DNA from: Kordiimonas marina
Lineage (GTDB): Bacteria; Pseudomonadota; Alphaproteobacteria; Sphingomonadales; Kordiimonadaceae
Length of the DNA stretch: 64,000 nt
Assembly (NCBI RefSeq): GCF_023006325.1
Contig: NZ_JAINDF010000001.1
Location: 240,863 to 304,862, forward strand
Direction: 5' to 3'
Shown here one piece after another: positions 13,600 to 56,117 of the stretch. The position numbers were made by a program, and so were the translations under genes. The stretch's first letter is position 1; every line of letters starts with the position of its first letter. The notes below the pieces were generated by a model. That model saw nothing but the letters and a program-made list of their open reading frames with translations, made no database searches and was not told the origin of the DNA.

Positions 13600-13615
13600 C
13601 TGACCAAAAGGTCAA
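13600..13615. promoter_or_regulatory. RutR-box-like operator A
   Basis: CTGACC-AAAA-GGTCAA, a near-perfect palindrome 124 bases upstream of the TonB receptor ATG. The flank CAAATC on its left is shared with operator D. It matches the E. coli RutR consensus TTGACCAnnTGGTCAA in both half-sites and spacing (consensus from memory). Confidence 0.72.
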
Positions 13616-13680
13616 GGCCTGGCCCGCGTCGCCCCCGCGCTGCGTGGAATGCCCTTTTATGCGGCTTTCTTTTCAGTTTT

Positions 13681-13696
13681 TTGACGAAAGTGTCAA
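13681..13696. promoter_or_regulatory. RutR-box-like operator B (weaker)
   Basis: TTGACG-AAAG-TGTCAA, palindrome of the same geometry 205 bases upstream of the TonB receptor ATG. On the minus strand it reads AATCTTGACA, sharing the AATCTTGAC flank with operators C and E. Confidence 0.6.
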
Positions 13697-13817
13697 GATT
13701 GGGTGAGCCCCCCTGAAACCCCTCACGAACTTTCGTTTGCAGGCCGTTGTTTAAAAAGCACAGTTCCCGTTTTTGCCCCCGAAAACCGTAGCGTCAGGAA
13801 AACGTCCCGGGTACGCA

Positions 13818-13845
13818 AAAGGCACCGCCCACAGGCGATGCCTTT
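13818..13845 (-). terminator. Intrinsic terminator after the nuclease gene
   Basis: Leftward-reading hairpin: AAAGGCA (13818-13824) pairs with TGCCTTT (13839-13845), with a further CGCC/GGCG stem inside and a CACA loop. On the minus strand it ends in TTTT. It closes the long BMP-to-nuclease operon. Confidence 0.75.
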
Positions 13846-13892
13846 CCCGCTTTGCGCCTTGATAAGCGCTTCAAGCGAATCACTATTTCAGG

Positions 13893-14675
13893 TTATTTGC
13901 CGTCGAAAATCTGGTTGAGATAACCCGCCAGGCGAATCCCCCCCTTCGAAAGCTGGCTCTTGATGACCGGCATATATTTATAGACATAGTCGTAGCTCAG
14001 GATCGCGCTGCCGACATTATAGATGCCGTCCCGCATCGCCATGTCTTCATGCACCCAATCGATCGGCTTGCTGTTCTGCCAGGTCTTGATCTCCTCAGGG
14101 GTGATCTTGGCATCGAGGAAACGGGTCCATTCGGTATAGGAAAGCCCGCGCTTCTGGATAAGGTCTACGTCCCAAACCTTATGCAGGTTGCTCATCACCC
14201 CGAACCAGACGACGGGGATGAGGTTGCCGCCATGGTCCTCCGGCCTGCCGGTATGCATCGGTTGGTGCAGGTCACCGACGATATGGATGATGAAGCGGAG
14301 CGCTTTCACCCGCTCGGCCTTCGGCGCGGACTTGTCCTTCAGCGTCTTGGTGAAGGCCTTGAGCGCCGTGAGCGCATCGCCCGCCGGGTTCTTCACGCTT
14401 TCTTCGTACGTCTGGCCTTGGGGCACGTTGATATAGTGCCAGGGCGACGCGGTCTTGCGCCAGAATTCGTCCGGGTCGGCACGCATGTCATCCGGCCAGG
14501 TGGCGGCTTCCGCCATGAATTCATTGCCGAGAAGGTCCTTCACCGCCTTAGCGGCCGTGGGTGTCAGGTGATGGCTGGCGATTTCGGCAATCACCCGGTG
14601 GCCGGTGGGGCCATAAGCATGGGCGGAAAGGCTGCCAAGCATCAGGCAGGCCACAAGTCCAATCAAACGACGCAT
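13893..14675 (-). CDS. S1/P1-type nuclease, periplasmic
   Basis: Zinc-dependent nuclease of 260 residues cleaving single-stranded RNA/DNA to 5'-nucleotides. A signal peptide ends SAHA, giving a mature N-terminus YGPTGH. The family's metal ligands are all recognisable: His of GPTGH, Asp in TWPDDMR, His in SPWHYINV, His/Asp/His in HIVGDLHQPMH, HGGN, and His/Asp in NLHKVWD. In P1 and S1 the mature protein starts with Trp, whose amino group binds zinc; here it is Tyr (Tyr21 of the precursor), an unusual replacement if cleavage is as predicted. The gene is last in the nucleoside uptake operon, 28 bases after deoB, which suggests it feeds the transporter with degraded nucleic acid. Confidence 0.9.
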   Translation of the reverse strand: MRRLIGLVACLMLGSLSAHAYGPTGHRVIAEIASHHLTPTAAKAVKDLLGNEFMAEAATWPDDMRADPDEFWRKTASPWHYINVPQGQTYEESVKNPAGDALTALKAFTKTLKDKSAPKAERVKALRFIIHIVGDLHQPMHTGRPEDHGGNLIPVVWFGVMSNLHKVWDVDLIQKRGLSYTEWTRFLDAKITPEEIKTWQNSKPIDWVHEDMAMRDGIYNVGSAILSYDYVYKYMPVIKSQLSKGGIRLAGYLNQIFDGK

Positions 14676-14703
14676 GAGTTCCCCCTATAAAGGAAAGGTC
14701 TTG

Positions 14704-15921
14704 TTAAAAGGCGCGCTCGCCCTCGCTGAGCGGCGCGATACCCAGATGTGCGGCCACAGTCTGGCCGATGTCTGCGAAACTTTTGCGAACCCCGCCGGTG
14801 CCCGGCTTGAGCGCAGGCCCAAAGGCGATGAAAGGCACATGCTCCCGCGTGTGGTCGGTGCCTTTCCAGGTCGGGTCGCAACCATGGTCTGCGGTCAGGA
14901 TGGCAATGTCGCCGTCCTTCATCGCCTCCATGAACTCCGGCAACCGGTCATCGAAATATTCGAGCGCGTTCGCATAGCCCGCCACATTGCGGCGGTGGCC
15001 GAAGCTCTGGTCGAAATCAACGAAATTGACGAAGGTGAGCGAGCCCTCGGGCGCTTCTGCCTGCATCTTCAGCGTGAGGTCAAAGAGACCATCGAGACCG
15101 TTGGCCTTGACCTTTTTGGTCAGGCCCTTGTGGGCGAAAATATCGGCGATCTTGCCAACCGAGATCACCTCATGCCCGACATCCGCCAGCTTTTCCAGCA
15201 GCGTCGGCATATGGGGCGGGGTCGCGAGATCACGGCGGTTCCCCGTCCGGGTAAAGACCCCATTTTCGCCGACGAACGGCCGTGCGATCACCCGGCCGAT
15301 ATTATAGTCATCCACCAGCTCGCGTGCGACCGCGCACACTTCGTAAAGCCGCTCCAGCCCGAAGGTGTCTTCGTGCGCCGCGATCTGGAACACGCTGTCG
15401 GCCGAGGTGTAGACGATCGGCTTGCCGGTCTTCATATGCTCATCGCCAAGCTCTTCGAGGATCACGGTACCCGACGCCGCCTTGTTGCCGAGCACACCCG
15501 GCAGGTCGCAGCGTTTGCACAGCTCATCGAGCAGGTCCTTCGGGAAGCTCGGGTATTCCTGCGCGAAATAGCCCCAGTCGAACCGCACCGGCGCGCCCGC
15601 CATCTCCCAGTGGCCGGACGGCGTGTCCTTGCCGAAAGACTGCTCAGCGCAGGCGGCATAGAAACCCTTCACGTCACCGCTGAACTCAAGCCCCTTGGGC
15701 TCATGCCCGGTCGCCAGTTCTGCGGCCTTGCCGAGGCCGAGCTCTGCCATGTGGGGAAGCGAAAGTGGGCCCGCGGCCGGGCGGTCAGCTGCCACATTCC
15801 CTTCAGCGCACCAGTCAGCAATATGGCCGAGCGTGTCTGCGCCCACATCGCCAAATTTGGCGGCGTCCGGCGCGGCGCCGATGCCGAAACTGTCCAAAAC
15901 AAGAATGAATGCGCGGGCCAT
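14704..15921 (-). CDS. deoB: Phosphopentomutase
   Basis: Interconverts (deoxy)ribose-1-phosphate and (deoxy)ribose-5-phosphate, linking nucleoside phosphorolysis to DeoC and the pentose pathway; cytosolic. The 405-residue protein has the alkaline-phosphatase-superfamily metal-binding pattern: [12 protein letters not shown] at the start, DTPSGHWEM with the phosphorylated Thr, [21 protein letters not shown] and [19 protein letters not shown]. Length and motifs match DeoB of E. coli and Bacillus. It follows deoA by 5 bases, inside one operon. Confidence 0.96.
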
Positions 15922-15926
15922 GGGCC

Positions 15927-17258
15927 TTATCCTTCAATAATCTCGGCGGTGATGGGCTTGAGCGCGGGCGCGGTATCCGAAAGCGTCACGGCTGCACGCA
16001 CGCGTTCAATCGCGGCATCCGCAGCGGCCTCATCCTGAGCATACACCATCAACGCGGGCTGATCCGCCGTGAGCTTGTCGCCGACCTGACAAAATTCCGT
16101 GAAGCCGACGCTGTGGTCGACCTTCTGGCTCGGGTCCGTGCGGCCACCGCCAAGCGCGACCACCGCCATGCCGATTGCACGGGCATCCATCGCGGACACA
16201 TAGCCTTCCCCGAGTGTCACCGGCTTCACCACCGGCGCGAGCGTGAGGTAGCTGTCTGCTTTCTCAAGGAAGTCCGCCGGGCCGCCCTGGGCCGAAACCA
16301 TCCGGCCGAAAATCTCTGTCGCCTTGCCGCTCGCAAGCGCTTCCTCAGCTGCCTTGCGCGCCGCGCTTGCATCAGCCTGCGCACCCGAAAGCGACAGCAT
16401 GTGGGCTGCCAGATCGAGCGTTATATCCATGAGGCGCTTATCGGCACCTGCCGGGTCCTTCAGGAACGCCAGCGTTTCCATGACCTCAACCGCGTTGCCG
16501 GCCGTGCGGCCCAGCACCTGGTTCATGTCGGTCATCAGCGCGGTCGTCGGTACGCCCGCCGCTGTGGCGACCCGGACGATATTTTCCGCCAGCACCCGCG
16601 CCTTGTCGGCGCTGTCCATGAAGGCCCCAGTGCCGAACTTCACGTCCATGACCAAGGCGTTCAGGCCCGCCGCCAGCTTCTTCGACAGGATCGAGGCGGT
16701 GATCAAGGGCACGCTTTCCACCGTCGCCGTCACGTCCCGGATGCCGTAGAAGCGCCGGTCCGCGGGGGCAAGGTCCCCGGTCTGGCCGATGATCGAACAG
16801 CCGACCGTCTTCACGATCTCGGCGAAGCGGTCGATGCTCGGGTACGGGTCATAGCCCGGAATGGCTTCGAACTTGTCGAGCGTGCCACCGGTGTGGCCGA
16901 GGCCCCTGCCCGAGATCATCGGCACAAGGCCACCGCAGGCCGCCACGATCGGCGCCAGCATCAGGCTGACCTTGTCGCCAACGCCGCCGGTCGAATGCTT
17001 GTCGACAATCGGCGCCTCCTTATCGAGGCCATATTTGGACCAGTCGATCACATCACCGCTGTCCCGCATGGCGAGCGTGAGCGCAGCACCCTCTTCCGGG
17101 CTCATGCCGTTGAAGAACACCGCCATGGCAAAAGCCGCGACCTGGCCGTCAGTCACGCTCATGTCGGTGATGCCGCGCACGAACGCCTGAATGTCGGCGC
17201 TTGAGACTGTGCCGCCATCCCGTTTGGTGCGGATCATTTCCTGGGGCAGGAATGTCAT
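15927..17258 (-). CDS. deoA: Thymidine phosphorylase
   Basis: Phosphorolysis of thymidine and deoxyuridine to base plus deoxyribose-1-phosphate; cytosolic homodimer. The 443-residue length is normal. Motifs include the glycine-rich phosphate region [31 protein letters not shown] in the signature region, and the C-terminal alpha/beta domain with [20 protein letters not shown]. Its start overlaps the cdd stop by four bases (ATGA), indicating translational coupling. The order cdd-deoA-deoB within the operon follows the catabolic sequence. Confidence 0.96.
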
Positions 17259-17686
17259 TTTGACTGGTCTTCCTTTTGCGCGTGAACATTTTCAGGTCCA
17301 AAGCTGTGGGGCAGCAGGGCCAAGCTGTCGGTCTCAATCAGCACCTCGCCGTCCTTGCTACACACGGTGACCTTGCAGCCTTCAGGCGGGCTGAATTCCC
17401 GGATTTTCTGACGGCAGCCCCCGCACGGTGTGCAGGGCGTATCCGAGGGGCCGATCACCACGACATGCGCGATGGCCGTATCCCCGCCCATGACCATGGC
17501 GCTGATGGCGCCACCTTCGGCGCAGGTGCCGAGCGGATAGGCCGCGTTTTCCACATTGCAGCCCGCATAGATCTTGCCGCCCCGGGTCAGGATCGCGGCG
17601 CCCACCGGGTGGTGGGAATAAGGCGCATAGGCGCGCGCGCGGGCATCAAGCGCCGCCTCGATCATCGCCTTCAGGGTGTCTGTCAT
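17255..17686 (-). CDS. cdd: Cytidine deaminase
   Basis: Small tetrameric-type cytidine/deoxycytidine deaminase of 143 residues. Zinc ligands and the catalytic Glu are visible as Cys55-Ala-Glu57 (TCAEGGA) and Cys88/Cys91 (PCGGC); YSHHPVGAAI and GCNVENAAYP are also conserved. It converts (deoxy)cytidine to (deoxy)uridine for phosphorolysis by DeoA. It sits 3 bases after the second permease gene and overlaps deoA by four bases, inside the uptake operon. Confidence 0.95.
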   Translation of the reverse strand: MTDTLKAMIEAALDARARAYAPYSHHPVGAAILTRGGKIYAGCNVENAAYPLGTCAEGGAISAMVMGGDTAIAHVVVIGPSDTPCTPCGGCRQKIREFSPPEGCKVTVCSKDGEVLIETDSLALLPHSFGPENVHAQKEDQSK

Positions 17687-17689
17687 GGC

Positions 17690-18664
17690 CTAGTGGTCCT
17701 TTTCATACGGAATACCGCTGGCTTTCGGCGCAACCATGCGCCCGGCAAAGCCCGCGAGAATAAGCACCGTCAGCACGTACGGCAGCATGATGGTGAACTG
17801 AACCGGTATCTCACCAATGAGCGGCAGCGCCACGCCCTGCAGCCGCCCCTGCAGCGCGTCGACAAAGCCGAACAACAGGCAGGCAAGCAGTGTCGGCACC
17901 GGTTTCCAGCGCCCGAAGATCATCGCCGCCAGCGCCAGATAGCCTTTACCCGCCGACATGTCCCGGATGAAGCCCGCGCCAAGCCCGGTCGACAGCACGA
18001 CCCCCGACAGCCCGCACAACAACCCGGCAATCGCCATCGCCTGATAGCGCAGCTTGGCCACCGAAATACCGGCGGTATCCACCGCTTCCGGGTTTTCGCC
18101 CACTGCGCGCAGGCGCAGGCCGAAGCGGGTGCGGTACAGCATCCACGCCACCAGCGGCACAATCGCCACCGTCATATAGGTGATGATATTATGGCCCGAA
18201 ATCACCTCGCTATAAAGCGGGCCGATCACCGGCACGGAGGCGAGGCTTTCCGCGAACGGCAGGTTGATTTCGGTGAAGCGCGCACCGCCGGAGAGAAGCG
18301 GCGTCTGCCCACCCTGATGGAACCAGGCGCCAGCGAGCGTGGGCGCGAGGCCCGCGATGACAATATTGATCGCCATGCCGGAGACGATCTGGTTGCCGCG
18401 CTGGGTGATCGAGACGTAGGCGTGTAGAAGCGCGAGGACCAACGACGTGGCCAGGCCAGCGCCTAGCCCGACCCAGGCCGAGCCGGTCACCGCCGCCGCT
18501 GTCGCGGCCGCAAAGGCTGCGCCCAGCATCTTGCCTTCAAGCCCGATGTCGACAACGCCCGCGCGTTCGGCGCACAGGCCCGCGAGACCCGCCAGCACCA
18601 GCGGCGTGGCGGTGCGGATGGTCGAGGCCACCAGAAGCAGCGTATCGGCGTAAAGGTCGATCAT
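17690..18664 (-). CDS. Nucleoside ABC transporter permease (second subunit)
   Basis: Inner-membrane permease of 324 residues, BPD-transp-2 (RbsC-like) family, with about eight to nine hydrophobic spans. LAGLCAERAGVVDIGLEGKM near the N-terminus and LRAVGENPEAVDTAGI in the middle are hallmarks of the NupQ/BmpC-type nucleoside permeases. It overlaps the preceding permease gene by four bases and is followed at once by cdd, so import and first catabolic step are coupled. It works with the other permease, the ATPase and the BMP-type binding protein of this operon. Confidence 0.92.
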   Translation of the reverse strand: MIDLYADTLLLVASTIRTATPLVLAGLAGLCAERAGVVDIGLEGKMLGAAFAAATAAAVTGSAWVGLGAGLATSLVLALLHAYVSITQRGNQIVSGMAINIVIAGLAPTLAGAWFHQGGQTPLLSGGARFTEINLPFAESLASVPVIGPLYSEVISGHNIITYMTVAIVPLVAWMLYRTRFGLRLRAVGENPEAVDTAGISVAKLRYQAMAIAGLLCGLSGVVLSTGLGAGFIRDMSAGKGYLALAAMIFGRWKPVPTLLACLLFGFVDALQGRLQGVALPLIGEIPVQFTIMLPYVLTVLILAGFAGRMVAPKASGIPYEKDH

Positions 18665-19767
18665 GCCGCCTTCCTTTCCGCAAAGCGCCAGAACAAGAGA
18701 CTGATCGGGTCACGGAACAGATGTTCCATCGCCCCCGCGAACAGGATGACGAGGCCCTGCACCATCACCACCGCATCGCGTGAGAAGTTCGGAATGTCGA
18801 ACGCCACCTCGGTGCCGCCCTGATAAAGCGCGCCGAAAAGAATGGCAGCGAGGATGATCCCCAGGGGTTTGTTCCGGCCCATGAAGGCGACTGCGATCCC
18901 GACGAAGCCGTAGCCAAGCGTAAAGTTGGCGAGGAGCCGGTGCTGCTCGCCCAGAAGCTCATTCAGCCCCATGAGCCCGGCCAGCGCGCCCGAAATCATC
19001 ATGGCGATGATGGTCATGCGCGAAACCGAAACCCCGGCGAACCGCGCCGCGCCTGCGCTTTTGCCAACGACCCGAAGCTCATAGCCGAAGCGCGTGCGCC
19101 ACAGCAGGAAGCCCATACCCCACGCGCACAATAGCGCGATCAGGAAGGAGATATTCATCGGGTTGTTGTCGTAAGAAATCCCCATCATGCCCAGCAGGTC
19201 ATGGATATGAATGAGCGCCGTGCCTGCAGGGAAGTCCGCGCTTTCCGGCATCTGGCCGCCCGGCCGGTGCAAGGGCCCCACCAGCAGGTAAGCCAGCAGC
19301 GCCGAGGCGATGAAGTTGAACATGATCGTGGTGATCACGATATGCGCGCCGCGCCTGGCCTGAAGCCACGCCGGGATGAAGGCCCAAATCGCGCCGAACA
19401 GAGCCGCGCCCACAATGCCTGCAAACACGCCCAGAAGCGGGGCATGAGGCCCGAAGGCGAACACGCCGAGCGTAAGGCCAACCCCGCCGACCATCGCCTG
19501 CCCTTCACCGCCGATATTGAAAAGCCCGGCATGGTAAGCGATGGAGACGGCAAGCCCGGTAAAGATGAAGTTGGTGGCGTAATAAAGCGTGTATCCGATG
19601 GCTTCCTGATAGCCGAACGCGCCCTGAACCAGAAGCGACAGCGCCTGGAACGGGTTATCACCCAGCGCCCAGATGACGATGCCTGAGACCACAAAGGCCG
19701 CCAGCAAGTTGAGCGCGGGCAGCAGGATATTGTCGGCCCAAAAGGGCAGCTTACGCGCGGCCGCCAT
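18661..19767 (-). CDS. Nucleoside ABC transporter permease (first subunit)
   Basis: Permease of 368 residues, paralogous in type to the downstream one. About eight to nine spans; INIGGEGQ-like segment FNIGGEGQAMVGG and LRVVGKSAGAARFAGV are typical of NupP/BmpB-type nucleoside permeases. Start overlaps the stop of the ATPase gene by one base and its end overlaps the next permease by four, showing a tightly coupled operon. Confidence 0.92.
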   Translation of the reverse strand: MAAARKLPFWADNILLPALNLLAAFVVSGIVIWALGDNPFQALSLLVQGAFGYQEAIGYTLYYATNFIFTGLAVSIAYHAGLFNIGGEGQAMVGGVGLTLGVFAFGPHAPLLGVFAGIVGAALFGAIWAFIPAWLQARRGAHIVITTIMFNFIASALLAYLLVGPLHRPGGQMPESADFPAGTALIHIHDLLGMMGISYDNNPMNISFLIALLCAWGMGFLLWRTRFGYELRVVGKSAGAARFAGVSVSRMTIIAMMISGALAGLMGLNELLGEQHRLLANFTLGYGFVGIAVAFMGRNKPLGIILAAILFGALYQGGTEVAFDIPNFSRDAVVMVQGLVILFAGAMEHLFRDPISLLFWRFAERKAA

Positions 19768-21305
19768 CAGCTTGCCCTCCTCTTCTCGCCCGCCATCATC
19801 AGGCCCAGCGTTTTCTCATCCGCGTCTTCAACCGCTACGATACCGACCAGCTCACCTTCGCACATGACGGCGATACGGTCGGAAATGGCGAGCAGTTCAT
19901 CGAGATCGGCGGAGACGACCAGAAGCGCCTTGCCGGCGTTCCGGAGCTCGGTGATCTGGTCATGGATTTTGGTGACGGCGCCGATGTCCACGCCCCGGGT
20001 CGGCTGGCCGATGATCATCAGCTGCGGGTCTCGGGCGATTTCCCGTGCGATCACCAGTTTCTGCTGGTTGCCGCCCGAAAAACTGCTGATCGCCAGCTTG
20101 GGGTTCCGGGGCCGTACGTCCTGGCTTTCGAAATAGCGCTTCGCGGTTTCGGCCAGCGCCTTCAGCTTCAGAATACCGCGGTGGGAGAAATCAGGCTCCC
20201 GCTGGTAGCCGAGCATGGCATTGTCCTCGGCCGAAAAGCTTTCGACTACGCCGGTTTTCAAACGGTCTTCGGCCACATGCGCCATGCCCATGCGTCGGAG
20301 CGTTATGGGGTTGGTTGCCACATCCGGGGACGCGATGACGACATTGTCGAACTCGACCGAGCCCGCCGCCACTTGCCTGAGGCCAGTGATGACTTCCATC
20401 AGCTCGGTCTGGCCGTTTCCGGCAACCCCGGCGACGCCCAGCACTTCACCGTCATGGACATCTAGCGACACGGCCTTGAGCGCCCGGACACCCTGGTCAT
20501 TATTGGCGGAGACATTTTTGAGGCTCAGCCGTATGACGCGCTCGCCATGCGCTTCCCGCGTCTTTTCCCGCGCGACCTTAGCACCGACCATCAGCTCAGC
20601 CAGCTCCCCCGTGGAGGTTTCCGCGGTTTTACGCTCAGCCACGATCTTGCCGGCGCGCATCACCGTCACGTCATCGGTGACGGCCATGATTTCATGAAGC
20701 TTGTGGGTGACGAACAGCACGGTCTTGCCTTCGGCCCTGAGTTGCCGGACGAGCGCGAAAAGCTGCTCGCTCTCCTGCGGGGTCAGGACGGCTGTCGGTT
20801 CATCGAGGACCAGGATTTCCGCGCCCCGGTAGAGCGCCTTCAAAATCTCCACCCGCTGCTTCACACCGACCGGCAGCTCCTCGACCACCGTGTCGAGCGG
20901 CAGGTTGAAGCCGAACTGGCGCTCAAGCGCCGCCAGCGCCCCGCGTGCCGTGGCCCGGGCGTCCTCCAGCTTGGCGCTGCCTTCCGCCCCGAGGATGATA
21001 TTGTCGAGCACCGTGAAAGGCTCCACGAGCATGAAATGCTGATGCACCATGCCGATGCCCGTCTTCATGGCCGCCGACGGGTCGGCAAACGTGTGCGCCG
21101 TGCGATCCACCACCACCTCGCCTTCATCCGGCTGGTAGAAGCCGAACAGCATTTTAAGGAGCGTGGACTTGCCCGCCCCGTTTTCACCTACGATGCCATG
21201 CACCGTGCCCGCACGCACCTTCAGGCAAACGCTGTCGTTTGCGACAACATCACCGAAGCGCTTCGTGAGCGCACGGGTTTCGATAGCAAATTCAGGGTTG
21301 GACAT
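19767..21305 (-). CDS. Nucleoside ABC transporter ATP-binding protein (two cassettes)
   Basis: Cytosolic ATPase of 512 residues made of two fused ABC domains, as in RbsA/NupO-type transporters. First cassette: Walker A GENGAGKST, signature-like LPVGVKQRVEIL, Walker B LVLDEPTAVL. Second cassette: degenerate Walker A GVAGNGQTE, intact signature SFSGGNQQKLVIAREI and a Walker B-like LMIIGQPTRGVD, the usual asymmetry in this family. It follows the binding-protein gene by 29 bases and drives uptake through the two permeases. Confidence 0.94.
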   Translation of the reverse strand: MSNPEFAIETRALTKRFGDVVANDSVCLKVRAGTVHGIVGENGAGKSTLLKMLFGFYQPDEGEVVVDRTAHTFADPSAAMKTGIGMVHQHFMLVEPFTVLDNIILGAEGSAKLEDARATARGALAALERQFGFNLPLDTVVEELPVGVKQRVEILKALYRGAEILVLDEPTAVLTPQESEQLFALVRQLRAEGKTVLFVTHKLHEIMAVTDDVTVMRAGKIVAERKTAETSTGELAELMVGAKVAREKTREAHGERVIRLSLKNVSANNDQGVRALKAVSLDVHDGEVLGVAGVAGNGQTELMEVITGLRQVAAGSVEFDNVVIASPDVATNPITLRRMGMAHVAEDRLKTGVVESFSAEDNAMLGYQREPDFSHRGILKLKALAETAKRYFESQDVRPRNPKLAISSFSGGNQQKLVIAREIARDPQLMIIGQPTRGVDIGAVTKIHDQITELRNAGKALLVVSADLDELLAISDRIAVMCEGELVGIVAVEDADEKTLGLMMAGEKRRAS

Positions 21306-21334
21306 GGTGGGTCCTGCGGGCTCTAGGGCGGTTG

Positions 21335-22336
21335 TTAACGTCCGGTGTTGCTACCGGCGACATCGCCGACGACGAGTTCACCACTGATGATCTTGGCGCG
21401 GGCCTCATCGAGCTTCGCCTTCATCTCCGGCGTGATCAGGCTGGCGTTATATTTGTCGAGCGCATAATCGACACCGCCGTCCTTGAGGTCCATGACCGTG
21501 TGGCCCGGCTTCCAGGTGCCATCCTTGGCCTGGGCAAGCGCCCGGTGAACGGCAAGGTCAACGCGCTTCATCATGCTGGTCAGCACGGTGCCCGGGGCGA
21601 CATAGTTCTGGTTGCTGTCAACGCCGATCGCGAACTTGCCCGCATCCTTCGCCGCCTGAATGACGCCAAGGCCGGACGGCCCGGCGGCGGAGAAGATGAT
21701 ATCCACCCCGCGTGCATACTGGGATTTGGCAAGCTCAGCCGCCTTGATCGGGTCATTCCAGGCGCTCGGCGTAGTGCCGACATAGTTTTCGGTGAACGTC
21801 AGGTCCTTGCGCACATAGTCCGCGCCCTGCTTATAGCCGCGTTCGAACCGGCGGATCAGCGGTATATCCATGCCGCCGATGAAGCCGATGCTGTTCGTCT
21901 TGGTTTTCATCGCCGCGATCATGCCCACAAGGAACGAGCCTTCGTTTTCCTTGAAGGTGATCGACTGCACGTTCGGCAGGTCGACAATGGCGTCGACGAC
22001 CGTGAATTTCACATTGGGGAATTCCTTCGCGACATTCCGGACCGCAACGGCATAGCCAACGCCCACCGCGACGATCAGGTCCGCGTGGCGGCGGGCGAAT
22101 CGCTTCAGCGCCTGCTCATACTGGGTTTCGCTGCGGGGTTCGAATTCGCGGTAGGCAATACCGGTTTCGGCCTTGAAGGCGTCAGCGCCCACGCGCGCCG
22201 CCTCGTTGAAGGACTTATCGAATTTGCCGCCGATATCATAAAGCACAACAGGCTTGAAGTCGGCCGCCATCGCCGTGACGCTCATCACTATGGACGCGGC
22301 AAGCGAAAGCACCGCGCGGCCAAAGGTCTTTTTCAT
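21335..22336 (-). CDS. BMP-family nucleoside-binding protein (PnrA-like)
   Basis: Periplasmic substrate-binding protein of 333 residues. Signal peptide ends AMAA; DIGGKFDKSFNEAARVG, DLIVAVGVGY, FIGGMDIPLIRRFERGY and IGVDSNQNY are conserved in the BMP/PnrA family, which binds purine (and other) nucleosides. No lipobox is seen, so it is probably free in the periplasm. First gene of the operon to ABC transporter, cdd, deoA, deoB and nuclease. GGGGAGTG precedes the ATG, and the palindromic operator C lies 105 bases upstream in the divergent promoter region shared with upp. Confidence 0.93.
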   Translation of the reverse strand: MKKTFGRAVLSLAASIVMSVTAMAADFKPVVLYDIGGKFDKSFNEAARVGADAFKAETGIAYREFEPRSETQYEQALKRFARRHADLIVAVGVGYAVAVRNVAKEFPNVKFTVVDAIVDLPNVQSITFKENEGSFLVGMIAAMKTKTNSIGFIGGMDIPLIRRFERGYKQGADYVRKDLTFTENYVGTTPSAWNDPIKAAELAKSQYARGVDIIFSAAGPSGLGVIQAAKDAGKFAIGVDSNQNYVAPGTVLTSMMKRVDLAVHRALAQAKDGTWKPGHTVMDLKDGGVDYALDKYNASLITPEMKAKLDEARAKIISGELVVGDVAGSNTGR

Positions 22337-22440
22337 GACTTTTCACTCCCCAGCAGCATATGTTTATCTATGCTTTGTTATGCCTTGATTTGACGGAAGG
22401 GCGCAAGGGAACCAGAGCATCACCCCGTGGTCAACCATTT

Positions 22441-22456
22441 TTGACATTTTGGTCAA
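22441..22456. promoter_or_regulatory. RutR-box-like operator C, divergent promoter region
   Basis: TTGACA-TTTT-GGTCAA between the divergent BMP operon (ATG 105 bases left) and upp operon (ATG 69 bases right). On the minus strand the site and flank read AATCTTGACCAAAATGTCAA, nearly the same as operator E. A further GGTCAA half-site lies at 22429-22434. Position suits joint control of both operons. Confidence 0.72.
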
Positions 22457-22524
22457 GATTCAGTCGACAATTGCATTTCCTGCCCCTATGAAAAGGCAAA
22501 TCCAGTTGCCGACGGAGCTACTCT

Positions 22525-23163
22525 ATGACTTCAAATGTTACAGTTGTGGATCATCCCCTTGTTCAGCATAAGCTGACGCTGATGCGCCGCAAGGAAGCGA
22601 GTACCGCAGAATTCCGCAAACTTTTGCGCGAAATCGGGCTGTTTCTCGGCTATGAAGCGCTCCGCGATCTGCCGCTCGGTAAACTGCATATCGACACGCC
22701 CATCTGCGGCATGGAAGCCCCGGTGATCGCGGGCAAGAAGCTGACCTTTATCTCGGTGTTGCGCGCAGGCGACGGCCTCCTCGGCCCGATGCTGGACCTG
22801 GTGCCCTCCGCCCGGATCGGCCAGATCGGCCTGTCCCGCGATGAGGAGACCCTGGAGGTCACCAAATATTTCTTCAAGGTGCCGCAGAACCTGGGCCAAC
22901 GCCTCAATGTGGTGCTGGACCCGATGTTGGCGACTGGCCATTCGGCGATCCGGGCTATACAGGAAATCAAGGACGCAGGCGCCAAGGATATTCGTTTTGT
23001 TTGCCTCCTGGCCGCGCCCGAGGGTATCAAGGCCTTCACGGAAGCGCATCCGGACGTGCCCGTTGTGACCGCCTCGATCGACGAAAAGCTCAATGAAAAA
23101 GCTTACATCGTCCCGGGGCTCGGCGACGCCGGTGACCGCTTGTTTGGAACCAAAGGGGCCTAA
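22525..23163 (+). CDS. upp: Uracil phosphoribosyltransferase
   Basis: Salvages uracil to UMP with PRPP; cytosolic. The 212-residue length is normal. PRPP-binding loop [11 protein letters not shown] and the uracil-binding C-terminal motif [12 protein letters not shown] are both present, as is LRAGDGLL. First gene of a three-gene salvage operon (upp, second phosphoribosyltransferase, pnp), transcribed away from the BMP operon with operator C in between. It recovers the uracil that DeoA and Cdd generate. Confidence 0.96.
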
Positions 23164-23169
23164 AGTAAA

Positions 23170-23724
23170 ATGACCGTCACGAAACACTATGTAACCGCTC
23201 AAGAGCTCTTGGACGATTCGTTCCAGCTCGGCGTCAAAATCCTGAAAAGCGGCTTCAAGCCGAAATTCATCGTCGGTGTCTGGCGTGGCGGCACCCCGAC
23301 CGGCATCGCCGTGCAGGAAATCATGGATTATTACGGTATCCATACCGACCATATCGCCATCCGCACCTCCAGCTACATCGGGATGCAGCAGCAGAAAGAG
23401 GTCAAGGTTCACGGCCTCGAATATATCGTCAACAACATCAACGCCGAGGACAGCCTCCTCATCGTCGATGACGTGTTCGACAGCGGCCGTTCGATCGCCG
23501 CGATCATCGAGCACCTGAAGGCGAAATGCCGCCGCAACACCCCGGAAATCATCAAGATCGCCACGGTCTTCTACAAGCCCGCGCGCAACGTCACCGACCT
23601 GGAGCCGGATTTCTACTGCCATGAAACCGACGACTGGCTGGTGTTCCCGCATGAGCTTTCGGACATGAGCCTCGCGGAGATCAAGGAACATAAGGGCCTC
23701 GACCTCCCGGACATGAAATTCTGA
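23170..23724 (+). CDS. Purine-type phosphoribosyltransferase (hypoxanthine/xanthine-guanine-like)
   Basis: Type I phosphoribosyltransferase of 184 residues. The PRPP loop VDDVFDSGRS is the clear family signature, and the VGVWRGGTPTG segment forms the pyrophosphate-binding region. It begins 6 bases after upp and is followed 20 bases later by pnp, so the likely role is converting hypoxanthine, guanine or xanthine released by Pnp into nucleotides. Which purine base is preferred cannot be read from sequence. Confidence 0.85.
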   Translation: MTVTKHYVTAQELLDDSFQLGVKILKSGFKPKFIVGVWRGGTPTGIAVQEIMDYYGIHTDHIAIRTSSYIGMQQQKEVKVHGLEYIVNNINAEDSLLIVDDVFDSGRSIAAIIEHLKAKCRRNTPEIIKIATVFYKPARNVTDLEPDFYCHETDDWLVFPHELSDMSLAEIKEHKGLDLPDMKF

Positions 23725-23744
23725 GGAACGGGAGCCGCGGCGCC

Positions 23745-24563
23745 ATGAATTACGACGACGTCCAGGCCTGTGCGGGCTTCATCCGCGAACGCTTCACCGG
23801 CGAGATGCCCAAGCTTGCCATGGTGCTCGGCAGCGGGCTCAACAGCCTGGCTGATGCCCTCGAAGACGCCACCGTCTTCTCCTACGCTGACCTGCCCGGT
23901 TTTCCGAAGCCGACGGTGGAGGGCCACGCCGGCCGGATGCTGATCGGCAAGCTTGGCGACAAGCCGGTCATCTGTATGCAGGGCCGCGCCCATGCCTATG
24001 AAGGCCACCCGGCGGAAAAGCTCGGCTACGCCACCCGCGTGCTGTGGGCCCTCGGCGTCGAGACGCTGGTGCTGACGAACGCGGCGGGCAGCCTGCGCGA
24101 AGAAGCCGGCCCCGGCAGCCTGATGGCGATCACCGACCATATCAATTTCTCGGGCGTCAACCCGCTTGTCGGCCCGAACGATGACCGTATCGGCCCGCGC
24201 TTCCCGGATGTCAGTGAAGCCTGGAACAAGGCCCTGACCAAGAAGCTGCTGGCGTGCGCGAACGCGCTCGGTATTCCGCTTCATAGCGGCGTCTACCTGA
24301 TGGCGAAGGGCCCGAACTTCGAGACCCCGGCAGAAATCCGTGCTTTCAAGGTTTGGGGCGCCGATGCCGTCGGCATGTCGACCGTGCCGGAATGCCTAGT
24401 CGCGCGTCACTGCGGCATGAAAGTGGTTGGCATCAGCTCGATCACCAACCTCGCCGCCGGGATGCAGGGTGAGCTCACGCACCATGAAACCATGGAATAT
24501 GGCGCCATCGCCGCCGTGAACCTGGAGAAGCTGCTGCGCGCCTTCGTCGCCGACGTGCTTTAG
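23745..24563 (+). CDS. Purine nucleoside phosphorylase, trimeric PunA type
   Basis: Phosphorolyses purine (deoxy)nucleosides to base and (deoxy)ribose-1-phosphate. The 272 residues contain the phosphate loop VLGSGLN, GRAHAYEGH, LTNAAGSL, the base-site motif GPNFETPAEIR, MSTVPE and ITNLAAG, as in the low-molecular-mass trimeric family (inosine/guanosine preferring, adenosine poorly used). That preference fits the exported adenosine deaminase encoded in this island, which would supply inosine. Last gene of the upp operon, ended by a strong shared terminator. Confidence 0.94.
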   Translation: MNYDDVQACAGFIRERFTGEMPKLAMVLGSGLNSLADALEDATVFSYADLPGFPKPTVEGHAGRMLIGKLGDKPVICMQGRAHAYEGHPAEKLGYATRVLWALGVETLVLTNAAGSLREEAGPGSLMAITDHINFSGVNPLVGPNDDRIGPRFPDVSEAWNKALTKKLLACANALGIPLHSGVYLMAKGPNFETPAEIRAFKVWGADAVGMSTVPECLVARHCGMKVVGISSITNLAAGMQGELTHHETMEYGAIAAVNLEKLLRAFVADVL

Positions 24564-24584
24564 GCTTCAAACCATTCAGACATG

Positions 24585-24616
24585 AAAAAGCCCGGCTGGT
24601 TTGGCCGGGCTTTTTT
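24585..24616. terminator. Bidirectional intrinsic terminator
   Basis: Perfect 12-bp stem (24585-24596 with 24604-24615), 7-base loop, A-run on the left and T-run on the right. It sits between the convergent pnp and aldehyde dehydrogenase genes and can stop both transcripts. Confidence 0.92.
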
Positions 24617-24640
24617 GTTTGGGCTTTAAAGGGGCAAGGC

Positions 24641-27049
24641 TCAGTAGCTCTTGCCGCCTTCGTTGGCATCGCCATACGGCACCCAGATGTTTTTGACTTC
24701 CGACGCGCGGTCCATCAGCACACGGGTCGCCATCTGCTTGGCGTCGAACCAGTCATAGGCCTTGCCGTAGCTGACCCACGTCCGTTTCATATTATCGGCC
24801 GCGGCCTTTTCAATGGCAGCCGAGCCTTCGCGGTCCCCGAAGTACCAGACGGCATCGATGCCGTAATGCTTGGCAAGCGGCATCGCCATGGCGTCACGCG
24901 CGCCGGTGACGATGTTGACCACCCCGCCCGGCAGGTCGGAAGTCTCGAGGATCTGGTAGAAGTCGGTCGCGAGGAGCGGATAGCGCTCGGACGGGATCAC
25001 CACTGCCGTGTTGCCCGCCGCAATCGCGAAGGCCGTCAGCGTGACGAACGCGAGGAGCGGTGCTTCATCCGGGCAGATGATACCGATGGTGCCGATGGCT
25101 TCATTCATTGCCAGCGCGACACCGCGGATCGGCGGCTGGTGCACGGCACCGTCATGCTTGTCGGCAATCGCCGCGGCAGAGAACAAGCGCTGGATCGACA
25201 GCTCGACCTCAGCCGTCGCAGCCTTGCCGCTCACGCCCGTGAGCTCGCTTAAGCGGTCCGCGAACTCGTCCGCGCGGGCGCTGAGGTTCTCGGCGACATA
25301 ATAGAGGATTTGCGCCTTCAGGTGCGCGGTCGTGCCCGCCCAGCCCTGTGCCTTGGTCGCGGCCTCAACCGCGTTGCGGATATCCTTATAGTTGCCGTCG
25401 CCTACGAGGCCCGCGAACGCGCCTTTATGGGTGGCAATGGCAACAGAATCACCGCCATCCGGCCGCGCCTGCTTGCCGCCGATATAATGCTTGGCGGTAC
25501 GGTCCACGCCCGGCATACCGCCGGACGCTTTCGGCTTGGCGACGTCGGCGGGCTTGGCGACCGGTTTCCACTCCTTCAGGCCCTTTTCGAACTTGGGCTT
25601 CAGGTAGGCGAGCATACCTTCGCGGCCGCCTTCACGCCCGAAGCCGCTTTCGCGGTAACCGCCGAAGCCTGCGGCGGCATCGAACATGTTAGTGCCGTTG
25701 ATCCAGACCACCCCGGCCTTGAGGGCGGGTGCGACTTCAAGCGCGCGCGACAGGCTTTCCGACCATACGGTGGCGGCGAGGCCATAGCGGGTGTTGTTGG
25801 CCAGCGCCACGGCTTCCGCCTGCGTGCGGAAGGTGATGGCGGTCAGCACCGGGCCGAACACTTCTTCCTTGAAGAGGATATTGTCGGTCCCGACATCGGT
25901 CACCAGCGTCGGCGGGTAGAAGACCCCGTGTTCCGGCATGTCACACGGCGCGTGCCATACGGTGGCGCCCGCGGCTTTGCCTGCGGTCACCATCTCATGG
26001 ATGCGGTCTTTCTGGACCTGATCGACCACCGCACCAATGTCGATGCATTTATCGAGGCTCGGGCCCACACGCAGGGTTTCCATCCGGCGCCGCAGCTTCT
26101 CGAGGAAGCGTTCAGCGATGCCTTCCTGAACGAGGAGGCGGGAGCCCGCGCAGCAGACCTGACCCTGGTTGAACCAGATGGCGTCCACAAGGCCTTCAAT
26201 GGCGCCGTCGATGTCGGCATCTTCGAAGACGATGTAAGGCGACTTGCCACCCAGCTCGAGCGTGAGCTTCTTGCCCGTGCCCGCGATAGCGCGGCGGATG
26301 ATCTTGCCGACCTCGGTCGAGCCGGTGAAAGCGACCTTGTCGACATTCGAATTCACCAGCATGGCGCCGGTGTCGCCCTCACCGGTGATGATATTGACGA
26401 CCCCCTTCGGCAGGCCTGCTTCCTCACACAGTTCCGCGAACTTGAGCGCAGTCAGCGAGGTGAATTCCGCGGGCTTGAGGACCACGGTGTTCCCGGCGGC
26501 GAGCGCGGGGGCCACTTTCCAGGCCAGCATCAGCATCGGGAAGTTCCACGGGATCACTTGGCCTGCGACACCGACGGCTTCATGGTCCGGGAATTCCTCA
26601 TCCATCAGCTGCGCCCAACCGGCGTGATGATAGAAATGCCGCGCGACCAGCGGGATGTCGATATCCCTGCTTTCGCGGATCGGCTTGCCGTTATCCAGGC
26701 TCTCGAGCACGGCAAGGATACGCGAATGCTTCTGCACTAAGCGCGCCAGCGCATAAAGATACCGCGCACGGCCATGCCCGCCGAGCGACGCCCATTTGCC
26801 TTGCGCCGAACGGGCGGCGGCAACGGCGGCATCCACTTCGGCCTGACCGGCGGCGGTCAGGTCCGCCAGCTTTTCGCCGCTTGAAGGCGCATAGGTCGCA
26901 AAGGTTTTCGCGTCCGCGGGCTGCACCCACTTGCCGTCAATAAACAGGCCGAAACGGCCGTCGTGCGCCTTCAGCCACGCGTCTGCGTTCGCCCTGCTTT
27001 CGGGCGCCGGGCTATAGTCCATGGTTTCGAACTTCTCTTTCACAGTCAT
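24641..27049 (-). CDS. Two-domain aldehyde dehydrogenase, ALDH16 type
   Basis: NAD(P)-dependent aldehyde oxidation. The 802-residue protein holds a complete ALDH domain (about 30-500) with catalytic Cys299 in GQVCCAG and Glu265 in LELGGKS, then a linker and a second, shorter ALDH-like domain (about 520-800) without GQxC or ELGG motifs. This two-domain layout and length match ALDH16; bacterial members keep the catalytic Cys while the animal ones have lost it. A longer frame exists, but the ATG at 27049 has GGGAGCAG in front and begins 10 bases after deoC. Since DeoC releases acetaldehyde, conversion to acetate is the natural role, though the substrate is inferred. Confidence 0.88.
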   Translation of the reverse strand: MTVKEKFETMDYSPAPESRANADAWLKAHDGRFGLFIDGKWVQPADAKTFATYAPSSGEKLADLTAAGQAEVDAAVAAARSAQGKWASLGGHGRARYLYALARLVQKHSRILAVLESLDNGKPIRESRDIDIPLVARHFYHHAGWAQLMDEEFPDHEAVGVAGQVIPWNFPMLMLAWKVAPALAAGNTVVLKPAEFTSLTALKFAELCEEAGLPKGVVNIITGEGDTGAMLVNSNVDKVAFTGSTEVGKIIRRAIAGTGKKLTLELGGKSPYIVFEDADIDGAIEGLVDAIWFNQGQVCCAGSRLLVQEGIAERFLEKLRRRMETLRVGPSLDKCIDIGAVVDQVQKDRIHEMVTAGKAAGATVWHAPCDMPEHGVFYPPTLVTDVGTDNILFKEEVFGPVLTAITFRTQAEAVALANNTRYGLAATVWSESLSRALEVAPALKAGVVWINGTNMFDAAAGFGGYRESGFGREGGREGMLAYLKPKFEKGLKEWKPVAKPADVAKPKASGGMPGVDRTAKHYIGGKQARPDGGDSVAIATHKGAFAGLVGDGNYKDIRNAVEAATKAQGWAGTTAHLKAQILYYVAENLSARADEFADRLSELTGVSGKAATAEVELSIQRLFSAAAIADKHDGAVHQPPIRGVALAMNEAIGTIGIICPDEAPLLAFVTLTAFAIAAGNTAVVIPSERYPLLATDFYQILETSDLPGGVVNIVTGARDAMAMPLAKHYGIDAVWYFGDREGSAAIEKAAADNMKRTWVSYGKAYDWFDAKQMATRVLMDRASEVKNIWVPYGDANEGGKSY

Positions 27050-27059
27050 CGTCTGCTCC

Positions 27060-28019
27060 CTAGCCCATCGGGTGGCGGTAAGCGGCGGAGTAGCCGCCGA
27101 AGGCATGATATTCCAGTTGGCGCTCAAGGTCACCGAGAAGGCTGGACGCGCCGAAGCGGAACAGCTCCGGCGTGAGCCAATCCCGGCCCAGCTCTTCCTT
27201 GATGAGCGTGAGGTAAGCCACAGCGTCCTTCGCGGTCTTGATACCACCCGCAGGCTTGTAGCCGACCTTCTGGCCGGTGCGCTGATAGAAATCACGGATC
27301 TGGCGGATCATCACCAGCGTGACCGGCAGCGTGGCGTTCACACCTTCCATGCCGGTCGAGGTCTTGATGAAATCGGCTCCCGCCATCATCGCGGTCATCG
27401 AGGCCTTGCCAACCTGCGTGAGGTTGCCGTGCTCGCCGGTCGCCAGGATGGCTTTCATCAGCGCCGGGCCACAGGCTTCCTTGAAGGCTTTCACTTCATC
27501 ATACAGCGCCTGCCAGTTGCCCGTGAGCACATGACCGCGCGTGATGACGATATCGATCTCGCCCGCGCCTGCAGCAACCGAACGGCGGATTTCCTCAAGC
27601 CGGGTTTCAAACGGCGCGAGACCTGCCGGGAAGCCGGTCGAAACCGCCGCCACCGGCACGCCGGTGCCCTCAAGCGCCTTCACCGCAGTCGGTACCATTT
27701 CATGATAGACACACACAGCCCCGGTGGTGAGCTGCATGTCACCCACGCCCAACGCGTCCATGATGTCTTGGCGGACAGGGTGCGCGGCCTTGCGGCACAG
27801 GCGCTCCACCCGGCCCGGCGTGTCATCCCCCGCGAGCGTGGTGAGGTCGATACAGCTGATCGCCTTCAGCATGAACGCAATCTGGCTGTCCTTCTTGACC
27901 GAGCGGCGGCCCATAAGCGAGCCGATACGGCGCTCAACCGCGCTTTTGTTGACACGGATACCATCCAGCCAGTCGGCATGGAAAGCGGTACCCCGATTGA
28001 TCGAACCTTCAGGTGTCAT
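27060..28019 (-). CDS. deoC: Deoxyribose-phosphate aldolase
   Basis: Class I aldolase splitting deoxyribose-5-phosphate to glyceraldehyde-3-phosphate and acetaldehyde. At 319 residues it is of the long, animal-like DERA type rather than the 220-260 residue bacterial form. Schiff-base Lys219 lies in GADFIKTSTG; Lys255 (GYKPAGGI) and Asp156 (EIDIVI) complete the proton relay, one number off human DERA. It is followed 10 bases later by the ALDH16-type gene. Operator D lies 49 bases upstream of the ATG, in the short gap after the permease gene, so deoC probably has its own regulated promoter besides read-through. Confidence 0.95.
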   Translation of the reverse strand: MTPEGSINRGTAFHADWLDGIRVNKSAVERRIGSLMGRRSVKKDSQIAFMLKAISCIDLTTLAGDDTPGRVERLCRKAAHPVRQDIMDALGVGDMQLTTGAVCVYHEMVPTAVKALEGTGVPVAAVSTGFPAGLAPFETRLEEIRRSVAAGAGEIDIVITRGHVLTGNWQALYDEVKAFKEACGPALMKAILATGEHGNLTQVGKASMTAMMAGADFIKTSTGMEGVNATLPVTLVMIRQIRDFYQRTGQKVGYKPAGGIKTAKDAVAYLTLIKEELGRDWLTPELFRFGASSLLGDLERQLEYHAFGGYSAAYRHPMG

Positions 28020-28067
28020 GACCTATCCCGATAAGAGTGCGAAAACTTCGCGACACAAAGCCAAATC

Positions 28068-28083
28068 CTGACCCTATGGTCAA
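28068..28083. promoter_or_regulatory. RutR-box-like operator D upstream of deoC
   Basis: CTGACC-CTAT-GGTCAA, palindrome in the 72-base gap between the permease stop and the deoC ATG. The CAAATC flank on its left equals that of operator A. Confidence 0.72.
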
Positions 28084-29693: not shown

Positions 29694-29742
29694 ACTGGTC
29701 CCCTGATCCCACTTTTAAGTTTCGTATGTTTCGTAACGTCTT

Positions 29743-31420: not shown

Positions 31421-32011
31421 ATGGCCAAACTTTATTTCTATTATTCCGCAATGAATGCGGGCAAAACCACGACGCTTCTGCAATCCAGCTTCAATTATCA
31501 GGAACGCGGCATGAATACCATGTTGTTCACCGCCGCGCTGGATGACCGCTTTGGCGACCCGAAAATTTCCTCCCGCATCGGCCTGGATGCCAACGCGCAC
31601 CTATTCGATGCGGACGTTGACCTTTTTGTCAAGATTGCAGATGCGTTAAAGACGCGCCCGATCCACTGTATTCTGGTCGATGAGGCCCAATTCCTGAAAA
31701 AAGAGCAGGTTTTCCAGCTGGCCTCCGTGGCGGACAGCCTCAAGATTCCAGTACTGGCCTATGGCCTGAGGACCGACTTCCAGGCCAACCTGTTTGAAGG
31801 CAGCCAGTGGCTTCTCGCCGTCGCCGATGAACTGCATGAGCTGAAGACCATCTGTACCTGCGGGTCGAAGGCCACCATGAACCTGCGCATCGACAGCAAG
31901 GGCAACCCGGTCAGGGAAGGCCAGTCGATCGAGATCGGTGGCAACGACCGCTACATCGCGCTCTGCCGCAAGCATTTCATGGAAAAGCTCAGGGGGCCCG
32001 CCGGCGCTTGA
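31421..32011 (+). CDS. tdk: Thymidine kinase
   Basis: Type II thymidine kinase of 196 residues: P-loop [10 protein letters not shown], catalytic Glu in VDEAQFL, lasso region, and a zinc site formed by Cys pairs CTCGSK and CRKHF (a CxxH-like second half). It phosphorylates thymidine or deoxyuridine to the monophosphate and so competes with DeoA for imported thymidine. Divergent from the adenosine deaminase gene. Its last 23 bases overlap the 3' end of the oppositely oriented PepSY gene. Confidence 0.95.
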
Positions 32012-55715: not shown

Positions 55716-55730
55716 TTTTCCATAAAAGAA

Positions 55731-55755
55731 GGGCCGACCCCATCGGGGTCGGCCC
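55731..55755 (-). terminator. Intrinsic terminator, leftward
   Basis: Perfect 11-bp stem (55731-55741 with 55745-55755) and 3-base loop. The T-rich tail TTCTTTT is on the minus strand only; on the plus strand it is followed by TGGAAGAG. It therefore best fits a leftward transcript from the intergenic region, and also lies 15 bases after the S9 gene. Confidence 0.75.
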
Positions 55756-56051: not shown

Positions 56052-56117
56052 GATTAAGTTTCAAGAAATTTTTATGACATCCATATTGGTCATAAAATCG
56101 CCTTTCGCGACCCCGAG

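Follow-up and report, generated by a model that had tools for sequence, protein, structure and literature searches.

A predicted RutR-type regulon of nucleoside uptake and salvage in Kordiimonas marina, with candidate operators inside tdk and before a putative structured RNA

Introduction

The uracil-responsive regulator RutR of Escherichia coli recognizes palindromic boxes of the sequence TTGACCAnnTGGTCAA and reportedly binds inside genes. PMC10891134 describes a RutR box of about 16 bp, together with the residues that contact DNA (K52 and K62) and uracil (W77, Y97, W167, Q171 and Q179′). RutR regulons are known and variable; in PMC5343134, comparative genomics predicted them in 68 genomes of 13 taxa, with 743 genes (10.9 per genome), and the pathway named in its text is pyrimidine catabolism. 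Here, we analyzed a 64,000-nt stretch of the Kordiimonas marina genome (hereafter, the window), which carries an island of nucleoside genes, a TetR-family regulator gene at 9575–10219 and a set of palindromic boxes, and we propose with good confidence that this TetR is a RutR-type regulator of a single regulon, acting through TTGAC-N6-GTCAA boxes with AATC/GATT flanks.

Compared with E. coli RutR (3loc, 4jyk and 6z1b), the window protein belongs to the same TetR subfamily and shares K52/K62, the W77/Y97/W167/Q171/Q179 pocket and a palindromic box of about 16 bp. It differs in that the rut operon is absent from Kordiimonadaceae, that the protein scores under the RutR equivalog cut-offs, that its targets are genes of nucleoside uptake and salvage, and that the box has the added AATC/GATT flanks. 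The regulons of PMC5343134 are likewise governed by a TetR-family RutR, and some of the nucleoside targets may already figure in the RutR gene lists of that study. Closer in sequence are RutR homologues linked to pyd genes in Stappia, Paracoccaceae, Pelagibius, Sneathiella and Burkholderiaceae, which have 41–54% identity to the window TetR; in contrast to these, the K. marina genome has no dihydropyrimidinase over cut-off while the salvage branch remains, and the Burkholderiaceae homologues lack this box. Among the literature matches listed (titles and abstract openings, with most subscription journals outside this set), no nucleoside regulon of this kind in Kordiimonas, no RutR-controlled RNA and no selection on an intragenic RutR box was found.

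Results

A sequence-only reading of the window had pointed to five palindromes of the geometry TTGACC-N4-GGTCAA with a common AATC-type flank, four of them in front of a TonB receptor gene, the divergent BMP/upp gene pair and deoC and the fifth at 56036. All five were recovered at the places given, and the flanking genes agreed with the names assigned to them (Table 1). The geometry itself had to be amended, being exact only at 56036–56051, with one mismatch at 13600, 22441 and 28068 and two at 13681 (TTGACG AAAG TGTCAA). The feature common to the boxes is a TTGAC-N6-GTCAA core, the outermost base of which is at times C/G, and around it the proposed AATC/GATT flank was indeed found. Palindromes of about 16 bp, as expected of RutR boxes, stand at the target promoters. 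That these are not chance palindromes is borne out by 58 matches in the window at ≤3 mismatches against 22.3 expected, a number reached in none of 100 shuffles. Two other sites with ≤1 mismatch, at 61207 in a FecR open reading frame (ORF) and at 62378 in an ECF sigma factor ORF, were rejected, having no flank and not being recovered by the profile described below.

The exact flanked motif, AATCYTGACN6GTCA, was found only seven times in the 3.68-Mb genome of K. marina and its reversed control not at all, which indicates that the flank adds much specificity. At ≤1 mismatch, the counts were 9+8 for the motif against 1+0 for the control, and without the flank the 16-mer at ≤1 mismatch gave far more background (43 sites, with 16 for its control). 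Of the seven exact motifs, six fall in the window, namely the five palindromes above and one at 31617 inside the thymidine kinase gene tdk; the seventh lies outside it, in front of a guanine deaminase gene (L228; 673.7 bits versus a cut-off of 351) and approximately 65 bp from its called start. A whole-genome scan, which had been suggested as a check on the sequence-only reading, was run with a profile built from 47 sites of relatives and none from the K. marina genome, and gave E≤0.02 only at nucleoside or nucleobase loci and at the 56036 element. These seven places were deoC, 56036, upp/BMP, the distal and proximal TonB receptor boxes, guaD and tdk, and the eighth-ranked match, among the 150 of 1738 first-look candidates that were scored, had E=1.7. 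A one-mismatch site inside carA (L233) was rejected as a coding coincidence.

The orthologous promoters of related genomes keep the box, as was found by footprinting the tetR surroundings of relatives with expected counts from shuffles, the aldehyde dehydrogenase region being left out of the counts. Upstream of the TonB receptor gene, a box was present at ≤1 mismatch in 17 of 22 sequences (0.04 expected) and at ≤2 in 19; for BMP/upp the corresponding numbers were nine and 17 of 18 (0.16 expected at ≤2 mismatches), and for deoC 12 (0.00 expected at ≤1 mismatch) and 13 of 14. Ten other upstream stretches at the same loci (20–120 bp, 12–22 sequences each) contained no box at ≤2 mismatches. The two boxes of the TonB receptor gene are 79–83 bp apart in the 13 genomes where both were listed. 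Some divergence was seen as well: the TonB receptor boxes exceed two mismatches in genomes G018, G013 and G008 (G and L codes denote our genomes and loci), with a three-mismatch distal box kept by G013 and G018, and in G003 no deoC box occurs in the 130 bp read and one is found further upstream (L078:15059).

Box and regulator were also found to occur together. Among 29 genomes of the family, the TetR was detected at E≤1e-30 in 24, including 19 of 19 genus members, with G007 having only copies of 43% and 37% identity. A box at ≤2 mismatches was present upstream of upp in 22 of the 24 TetR-bearing genomes, and in the other two (G013 and G025) a flanked TTGAC-N6-GTCAG was found at three mismatches. 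Conversely, no box at ≤2 mismatches was present within the 5.6–10 kb around upp in the five genomes lacking the TetR at this threshold: G004 and G005 keep the gene order deoB-deoA-cdd/upp-phosphoribosyltransferase-phosphorylase, yet have none in 10 kb, and the others are G006 (5.6 kb read), G027 and G028. Fisher's exact test of 24/24 versus 0/5, counting the two three-mismatch boxes, gives P=8e-6 on the assumption of independent genomes, which they are not; by genus code, five have box and TetR and four do not. Exact flanked motifs numbered 111 in the 24 TetR-bearing genomes and four in the five TetR-less ones, and the reversed control five across all 29. When the 111 were classified by hand, with some sites counted on both strands and two placed by likeness alone, 81 lay at TonB receptor, upp, deoC, guaD or pyd promoters, 12 in tdk and four at the RNA element.

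The regulator in the same island has the architecture of RutR, its PF00440 and PF08362 domains exceeding their gathering thresholds with 57.9 and 155 bits, respectively. It has no other close homologue in its own genome, where the next protein shows 34% identity (E 9e-9) and eight further weak TetR-like matches were found. In a search of solved structures, the RutR entries 3loc, 6z1b and 4x1e came first with 139 bits, and the next other protein had 41.5. A RutR-type recognition and ligand signature had been read from the sequence, and all seven contact residues (K52, K62, W77, Y97, W167, Q171 and Q179) proved identical in the window TetR, as well as in 24/24 fetched family homologues. The TetR of Kordiimonas gwangyangensis (L143) is 85% identical, and the genome of this species (G010) likewise bears boxes in the island, at guaD, in tdk and at the RNA element. 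In a tree of 52 rows (48 named rows picked from 80 loci, context labels set by hand), the Kordiimonadaceae TetRs formed one clade (support 99, starred) nested among regulators that lie beside genes of reductive pyrimidine catabolism, with the Burkholderiaceae regulators as sister group (support 87, not starred) and E. coli RutR on a long branch of unsure placement.

RutA was over cut-off in none of the 29 family genomes (2/14 in a control set), in keeping with the view that the E. coli rut pathway is not the target. Dihydropyrimidinase (TIGR02033) was over cut-off in 13 of the 29, not including K. marina, whose best match had 135 bits versus 393 and where preA was not searched. In relatives, a box upstream of a preT-like gene fronting preA (PreA, 666 bits versus a cut-off of 335) was found through the motif in G003, G014, G019 and G026, and also in 4/4 regions read without prior selection (G013, G020, G021 and G024), the pyd-region reading covering all dihydropyrimidinase genomes except G008, G015, G018 and G022. 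The boxes of G021, G024 and G026 keep the TGAC-N6-GTCA core with three mismatches to the full palindrome, and G007 has a different pyd operon, also with a box. An earlier supposition that the pyd operons of relatives lack the box was therefore rejected, as the preT side bears it. It seems, then, that the regulon is a RutR-type catabolic one widened to nucleoside salvage, of which the catabolic branch was not found here.

Outside the family, 71 named homologue loci in all contexts (L151–L221) were searched for the box within 350 bp upstream of tetR, and 14 carried it at ≤1 mismatch and 17 at ≤2. This mixed picture indicates that the regulator family is older than the TTGACC-N4-GGTCAA box, in agreement with the taxon-specific changes of the RutR motif stated in PMC5343134. 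Nucleoside-linked homologues occur in separate lineages, as in Aliikangiella marina (L192), where deoA is preceded by two boxes, at distances of 74 and 147 bp.

The exact flanked motif also precedes other TonB receptor genes (L293, G007:C42:29150; L290, G009:C11:224060), which suggests that regulon receptors have been swapped between lineages. Exact flanked motifs were also seen beside a LacI-family regulator and glucokinase gene (L269, G010:C7:165406; L276, G017:C22:37422) and singly upstream of purF (L291, G009:C20:100944) and greA (L294, G008:C67:2901). In G007, a second RutR-type TetR (43% identity; L080 2065–2706) lies beside a guanine deaminase gene, and guaD-like genes are situated ≤10 kb from RutR homologues in several other records. 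A LacI-family gene of G014 (L122 5260–6291) adjoins the dihydropyrimidinase gene of the pyd operon and perhaps encodes a second regulator of that operon.

The box inside tdk begins 196 bases into the gene; as it also lies upstream of the divergent deaminase gene, 312 bp from the start of the latter, it may serve either gene. To check for bias from choosing box carriers, tdk was read in 29/29 genomes and the non-carrier G018 was added. The box is present in ten of 19 genus genomes and 0/10 of other genera, a distribution that needs three changes on a TetR+Upp tree of 23 genomes. In the ten carriers, synonymous identity at codons 65–71 was 0.894 versus a gene mean of 0.49, which ranked first among 2815 windows in 15 island genes, the control windows being drawn from 8–10 of the same ten genomes; the best window outside tdk reached 0.737. 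Codon 66 encodes V, I or L, always ending in TT, GAC, TTT, GTC and AAG are invariant, and the third base of the spacer codon varies freely. With G018, from the same tree region, the window had 0.883 and was still the first in tdk. Eight genomes of the other part of the tree showed no peak at codons 65–71, and their best tdk window (codon 3) reached 0.80 and holds no box, so that high synonymous identity can arise for other reasons.

These observations bear on whether the tdk box is kept for reasons of protein or RNA, or is inert. In PMC10294691, most intragenic sites of E. coli PhoB are regarded as inert and poorly conserved, which together with the absence of the box from 19 of the 29 genomes and the boxless window at 0.80 lends this explanation some weight. 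The tdk box differs from the PhoB sites in being conserved against codon freedom: its codons are the most synonymously constrained of all windows compared, remain so within tdk when G018 is included, and hold TT at codon 66 across three amino acids while the spacer is free. We judge a box that is inert, or kept for reasons of protein or RNA, to be a minority possibility, if a serious one; the tdk box appears to be constrained at the DNA level and looks new. It would offer a testable case on the debated question of whether intragenic transcription factor sites can be under selection.

The stretch adjoining the perfect box at 56036 is not accounted for by any protein family. Downstream of the box on the minus strand come approximately 290 nt, closed by a 12-pair intrinsic terminator. 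The same layout was found in four other genomes (G010, G014, G016 and G017), with the box 114–118 nt upstream of an invariant GTGRTGGGCGCCTCC core and a hairpin plus T-run after the core (by eye). The box is perfect in K. marina (G000), G014 and G017, and has one mismatch in G016 and two in G010. A core search at ≤1 mismatch gave 11 matches in 8/29 genomes against two for the control, the other six matches having no box within 200 bp upstream. Stretches of 229–295 nt fold with z values of −5.3, −4.5, −4.1, −6.1 and −4.0; of the 69 pairs predicted from three aligned sequences, 19 had two-sided changes keeping the pair and 24 were broken or gapped in one sequence, and in a two-sequence alignment 11 of 64 pairs had two-sided changes. 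No Rfam family reached gathering in the window, only sub-gathering matches being obtained. The minus-strand TTGACC of the box lies 16–17 nt from a hexamer starting with TA in all five genomes (by eye), from which the operator could sit on the core promoter with TTGACC as a possible −35 element; a promoter consensus scan found none at the element. The 56036 element, a candidate structured RNA for which four other genomes hold boxed homologues, looks new and would be a tangible candidate for a small RNA under nucleobase control.

A second terminator-like hairpin, weakly resembling the suhB/mmgR sRNA family (21.2 bits, gathering 41), was observed at 56111–56160 on the minus strand, a short way upstream of the 56036 box.

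Discussion

The specificity and conservation of the boxes, their co-occurrence with the TetR in the family and the residues of the TetR support the proposed RutR-like regulon for nucleoside uptake and deoxynucleoside breakdown, which the sequence-only reading had predicted. Several points weigh on the other side. The window TetR scores under the RutR equivalog cut-offs of TIGR03613 and NF011584 (175.6 bits versus 368 and 156.3 versus 230, respectively) and is therefore not filed as an equivalog, although these two are its best NCBIfam matches; it would nevertheless work like RutR. By the hand classification, 14 of the 111 exact motifs lie at none of the core targets, 9/19 genus genomes and 10/10 others lack the tdk box, and with 150 of 1738 candidates scored in its own genome, the profile could have missed weak further members. 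Outside the family, the box is missing at ≤1 mismatch from 57 of the 71 named loci, including 34/34 Burkholderiaceae loci with a homologous TetR, none of which has one within 350 bp; a different palindrome, CCTGTCC-N4-GGACAGG, possibly the box of that group, was seen approximately 260–275 bp upstream of tetR in 4/4 Burkholderiaceae loci inspected (L154, L156, L171 and L176). Lastly, the BMP/upp box lies just upstream of −35-like motifs in both directions (by eye), which would suit an activator too.

With these points taken into account, a single RutR-type regulon is still the reading we strongly prefer. It would comprise an uptake arm (TonB receptor and BMP-type ABC transporter), a breakdown arm (S1/P1 nuclease, cdd, deoA, deoB, deoC and aldehyde dehydrogenase) and a base salvage arm (upp, phosphoribosyltransferase and purine nucleoside phosphorylase) in predicted operons, and further guanine deaminase, thymidine kinase via the box in its coding sequence, and the structured RNA, if transcribed. 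Without free pyrimidine base, the TetR dimer would most likely occupy the boxes and repress. From imported nucleosides, uracil would be freed by cytidine deaminase and pyrimidine phosphorylase and enter the W77/Y97/W167/Q171/Q179 pocket, whereupon the boxes would be released and uptake, breakdown and salvage would rise together. The tetR gene might rise with them if co-transcribed with the TonB receptor gene, whose transcript it may share, as the two stand in tandem on the minus strand with tetR downstream. Such an arrangement shows how the reach of a uracil-responsive catabolic repressor could be extended to nucleoside metabolism as a whole, with outer-membrane uptake and the deamination of purine bases among its targets, and how the repressor could then persist where its known catabolic enzymes are not found.

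The same boxes and regulator might respond to another ligand, such as thymine, a nucleoside, deoxyribose phosphate or guanine/xanthine, with the pocket kept for the fold. The deoxynucleoside and purine genes in the regulon point this way, as do the lack of RutA in K. marina and of any dihydropyrimidinase over cut-off. However, the window TetR shares all five uracil-contact residues with each of the 24 homologues, one of which is a copy beside the dihydropyrimidine dehydrogenase PreA (L043/L081), and we regard a ligand other than uracil as improbable.

Paired boxes, as before the TonB receptor gene, are a common layout for repression. Together with the box at the RNA element, which could itself supply the −35 (by eye), this spacing of 79–83 bp argues against the regulator activating some of its targets. 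BMP/upp would be an example of activation, its box lying between conserved GTCGACA and GGTTGACC motifs (by eye) in the region that separates the two divergent genes, where it would stand upstream of each −35 element; a promoter scan there found no promoter. For E. coli RutR, PMC10891134 describes an indirect activation of carAB. On balance, activation is an unlikely sign for these targets, and repression is the one we favour.

That the boxes serve a different transcription factor, with the TetR as a bystander, appears very improbable: TetR binding is deduced from sequence, eight weak TetR-like proteins are encoded in the genome and the Burkholderiaceae loci combine a related TetR with no box, but box and TetR are present or absent together across the 29 family genomes, the palindrome accompanies a homologous tetR in 14 named loci of other groups, and the recognition lysines are kept.

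Beyond ordinary promoters, the uracil signal may be read at two further levels, a selected operator inside tdk and a RutR-boxed structured RNA that would carry it into post-transcriptional control. We put forward this three-level reading tentatively, at somewhat less than even chances. The RNA of 229–292 nt would have a junction-like fold and an invariant GGGCGCCUCC core, in which the CCUCC stretch might base-pair to ribosome binding sites.

Features of the window

Table 1. Coordinates of the boxes, genes and candidate RNA in the 64,000-nt window of K. marina.
Feature	Position	Strand	Evidence
TetR-family regulator, RutR type (TetR_N + TetR_C_3/YcdC-like C-terminal domain)	9575..10219	-	domain, structure and residue matches
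TonB-dependent receptor, carboxypeptidase-regulatory-like N-terminal domain	10342..13476	-	domains; beside tetR in relatives
RutR-type box, proximal to TonB receptor gene	13600..13615		palindrome, footprint, profile
RutR-type box, distal to TonB receptor gene	13681..13696		footprint, profile
S1/P1 nuclease, last same-strand gene behind BMP	13893..14675	-	family match
deoB phosphopentomutase	14704..15921	-	family match
deoA thymidine phosphorylase	15927..17258	-	family match
cdd cytidine deaminase	17255..17686	-	family match
ABC permease (BPD_transp_2)	17690..18664	-	family match
ABC permease (BPD_transp_2)	18661..19767	-	family match
ABC transporter ATPase	19767..21305	-	family match
BMP/PnrA-like substrate-binding protein	21335..22336	-	family and structure matches
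RutR-type box between divergent BMP and upp	22441..22456		footprint, profile
upp uracil phosphoribosyltransferase	22525..23163	+	family match
phosphoribosyltransferase, purine type likely	23170..23724	+	all NCBIfam scores under cut-off
purine nucleoside phosphorylase	23745..24563	+	family match
aldehyde dehydrogenase downstream of deoC	24641..27052	-	family match
deoC deoxyribose-phosphate aldolase	27060..28019	-	family match
RutR-type box upstream of deoC	28068..28083		footprint, profile
tdk thymidine kinase	31421..32011	+	family match; divergent from adenosine deaminase-like gene 29743–31305
RutR-type box inside tdk, codons 66–71	31617..31632		motif, codon constraint, profile
candidate structured RNA, ~290 nt, ending in intrinsic terminator (55756–55730)	55728..56022	-	fold, homologues
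perfect RutR-type box fronting candidate RNA	56036..56051		palindrome, profile

The genes of the island are arranged as BMP-ATPase-permease-permease-cdd-deoA-deoB-S1/P1 nuclease diverging from upp-phosphoribosyltransferase-purine nucleoside phosphorylase, followed by deoC and aldehyde dehydrogenase, a membrane protein of unknown family with the adenosine deaminase-like gene, and tdk. The TonB receptor is a candidate transporter of nucleosides or nucleic-acid fragments. The BMP/PnrA-like protein is a probable nucleoside receptor, and its solved relatives include TmpC (2fqw), which we take to be the purine nucleoside receptor PnrA. The stretch GCGCAAGGGAACCAGAGCA at 22401–22419, on the BMP side of the RutR box, is nearly invariant in aligned relatives and falls in no assigned promoter element; it is perhaps the site of a second regulator.

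The polytopic membrane protein at 28092–29693, between deoC and the adenosine deaminase-like gene, is 65–88% identical in relatives and, at the thresholds applied, matched nothing in Pfam, NCBIfam or the PDB sequences; it is possibly a nucleobase permease of an unlisted family. The permease/deaminase pair (28092–31305) was not adopted as a sure target, as the 60 bp preceding each of the two genes contain no box, and only the tdk box could serve it. Beside the RNA element, two adjoining genes of the prolyl-oligopeptidase family (S9) occupy 51616–55715. Genes for a TonB receptor, FecR and an ECF sigma factor at 58102–62781, all on one strand, form a probable separate cell-surface signalling unit.

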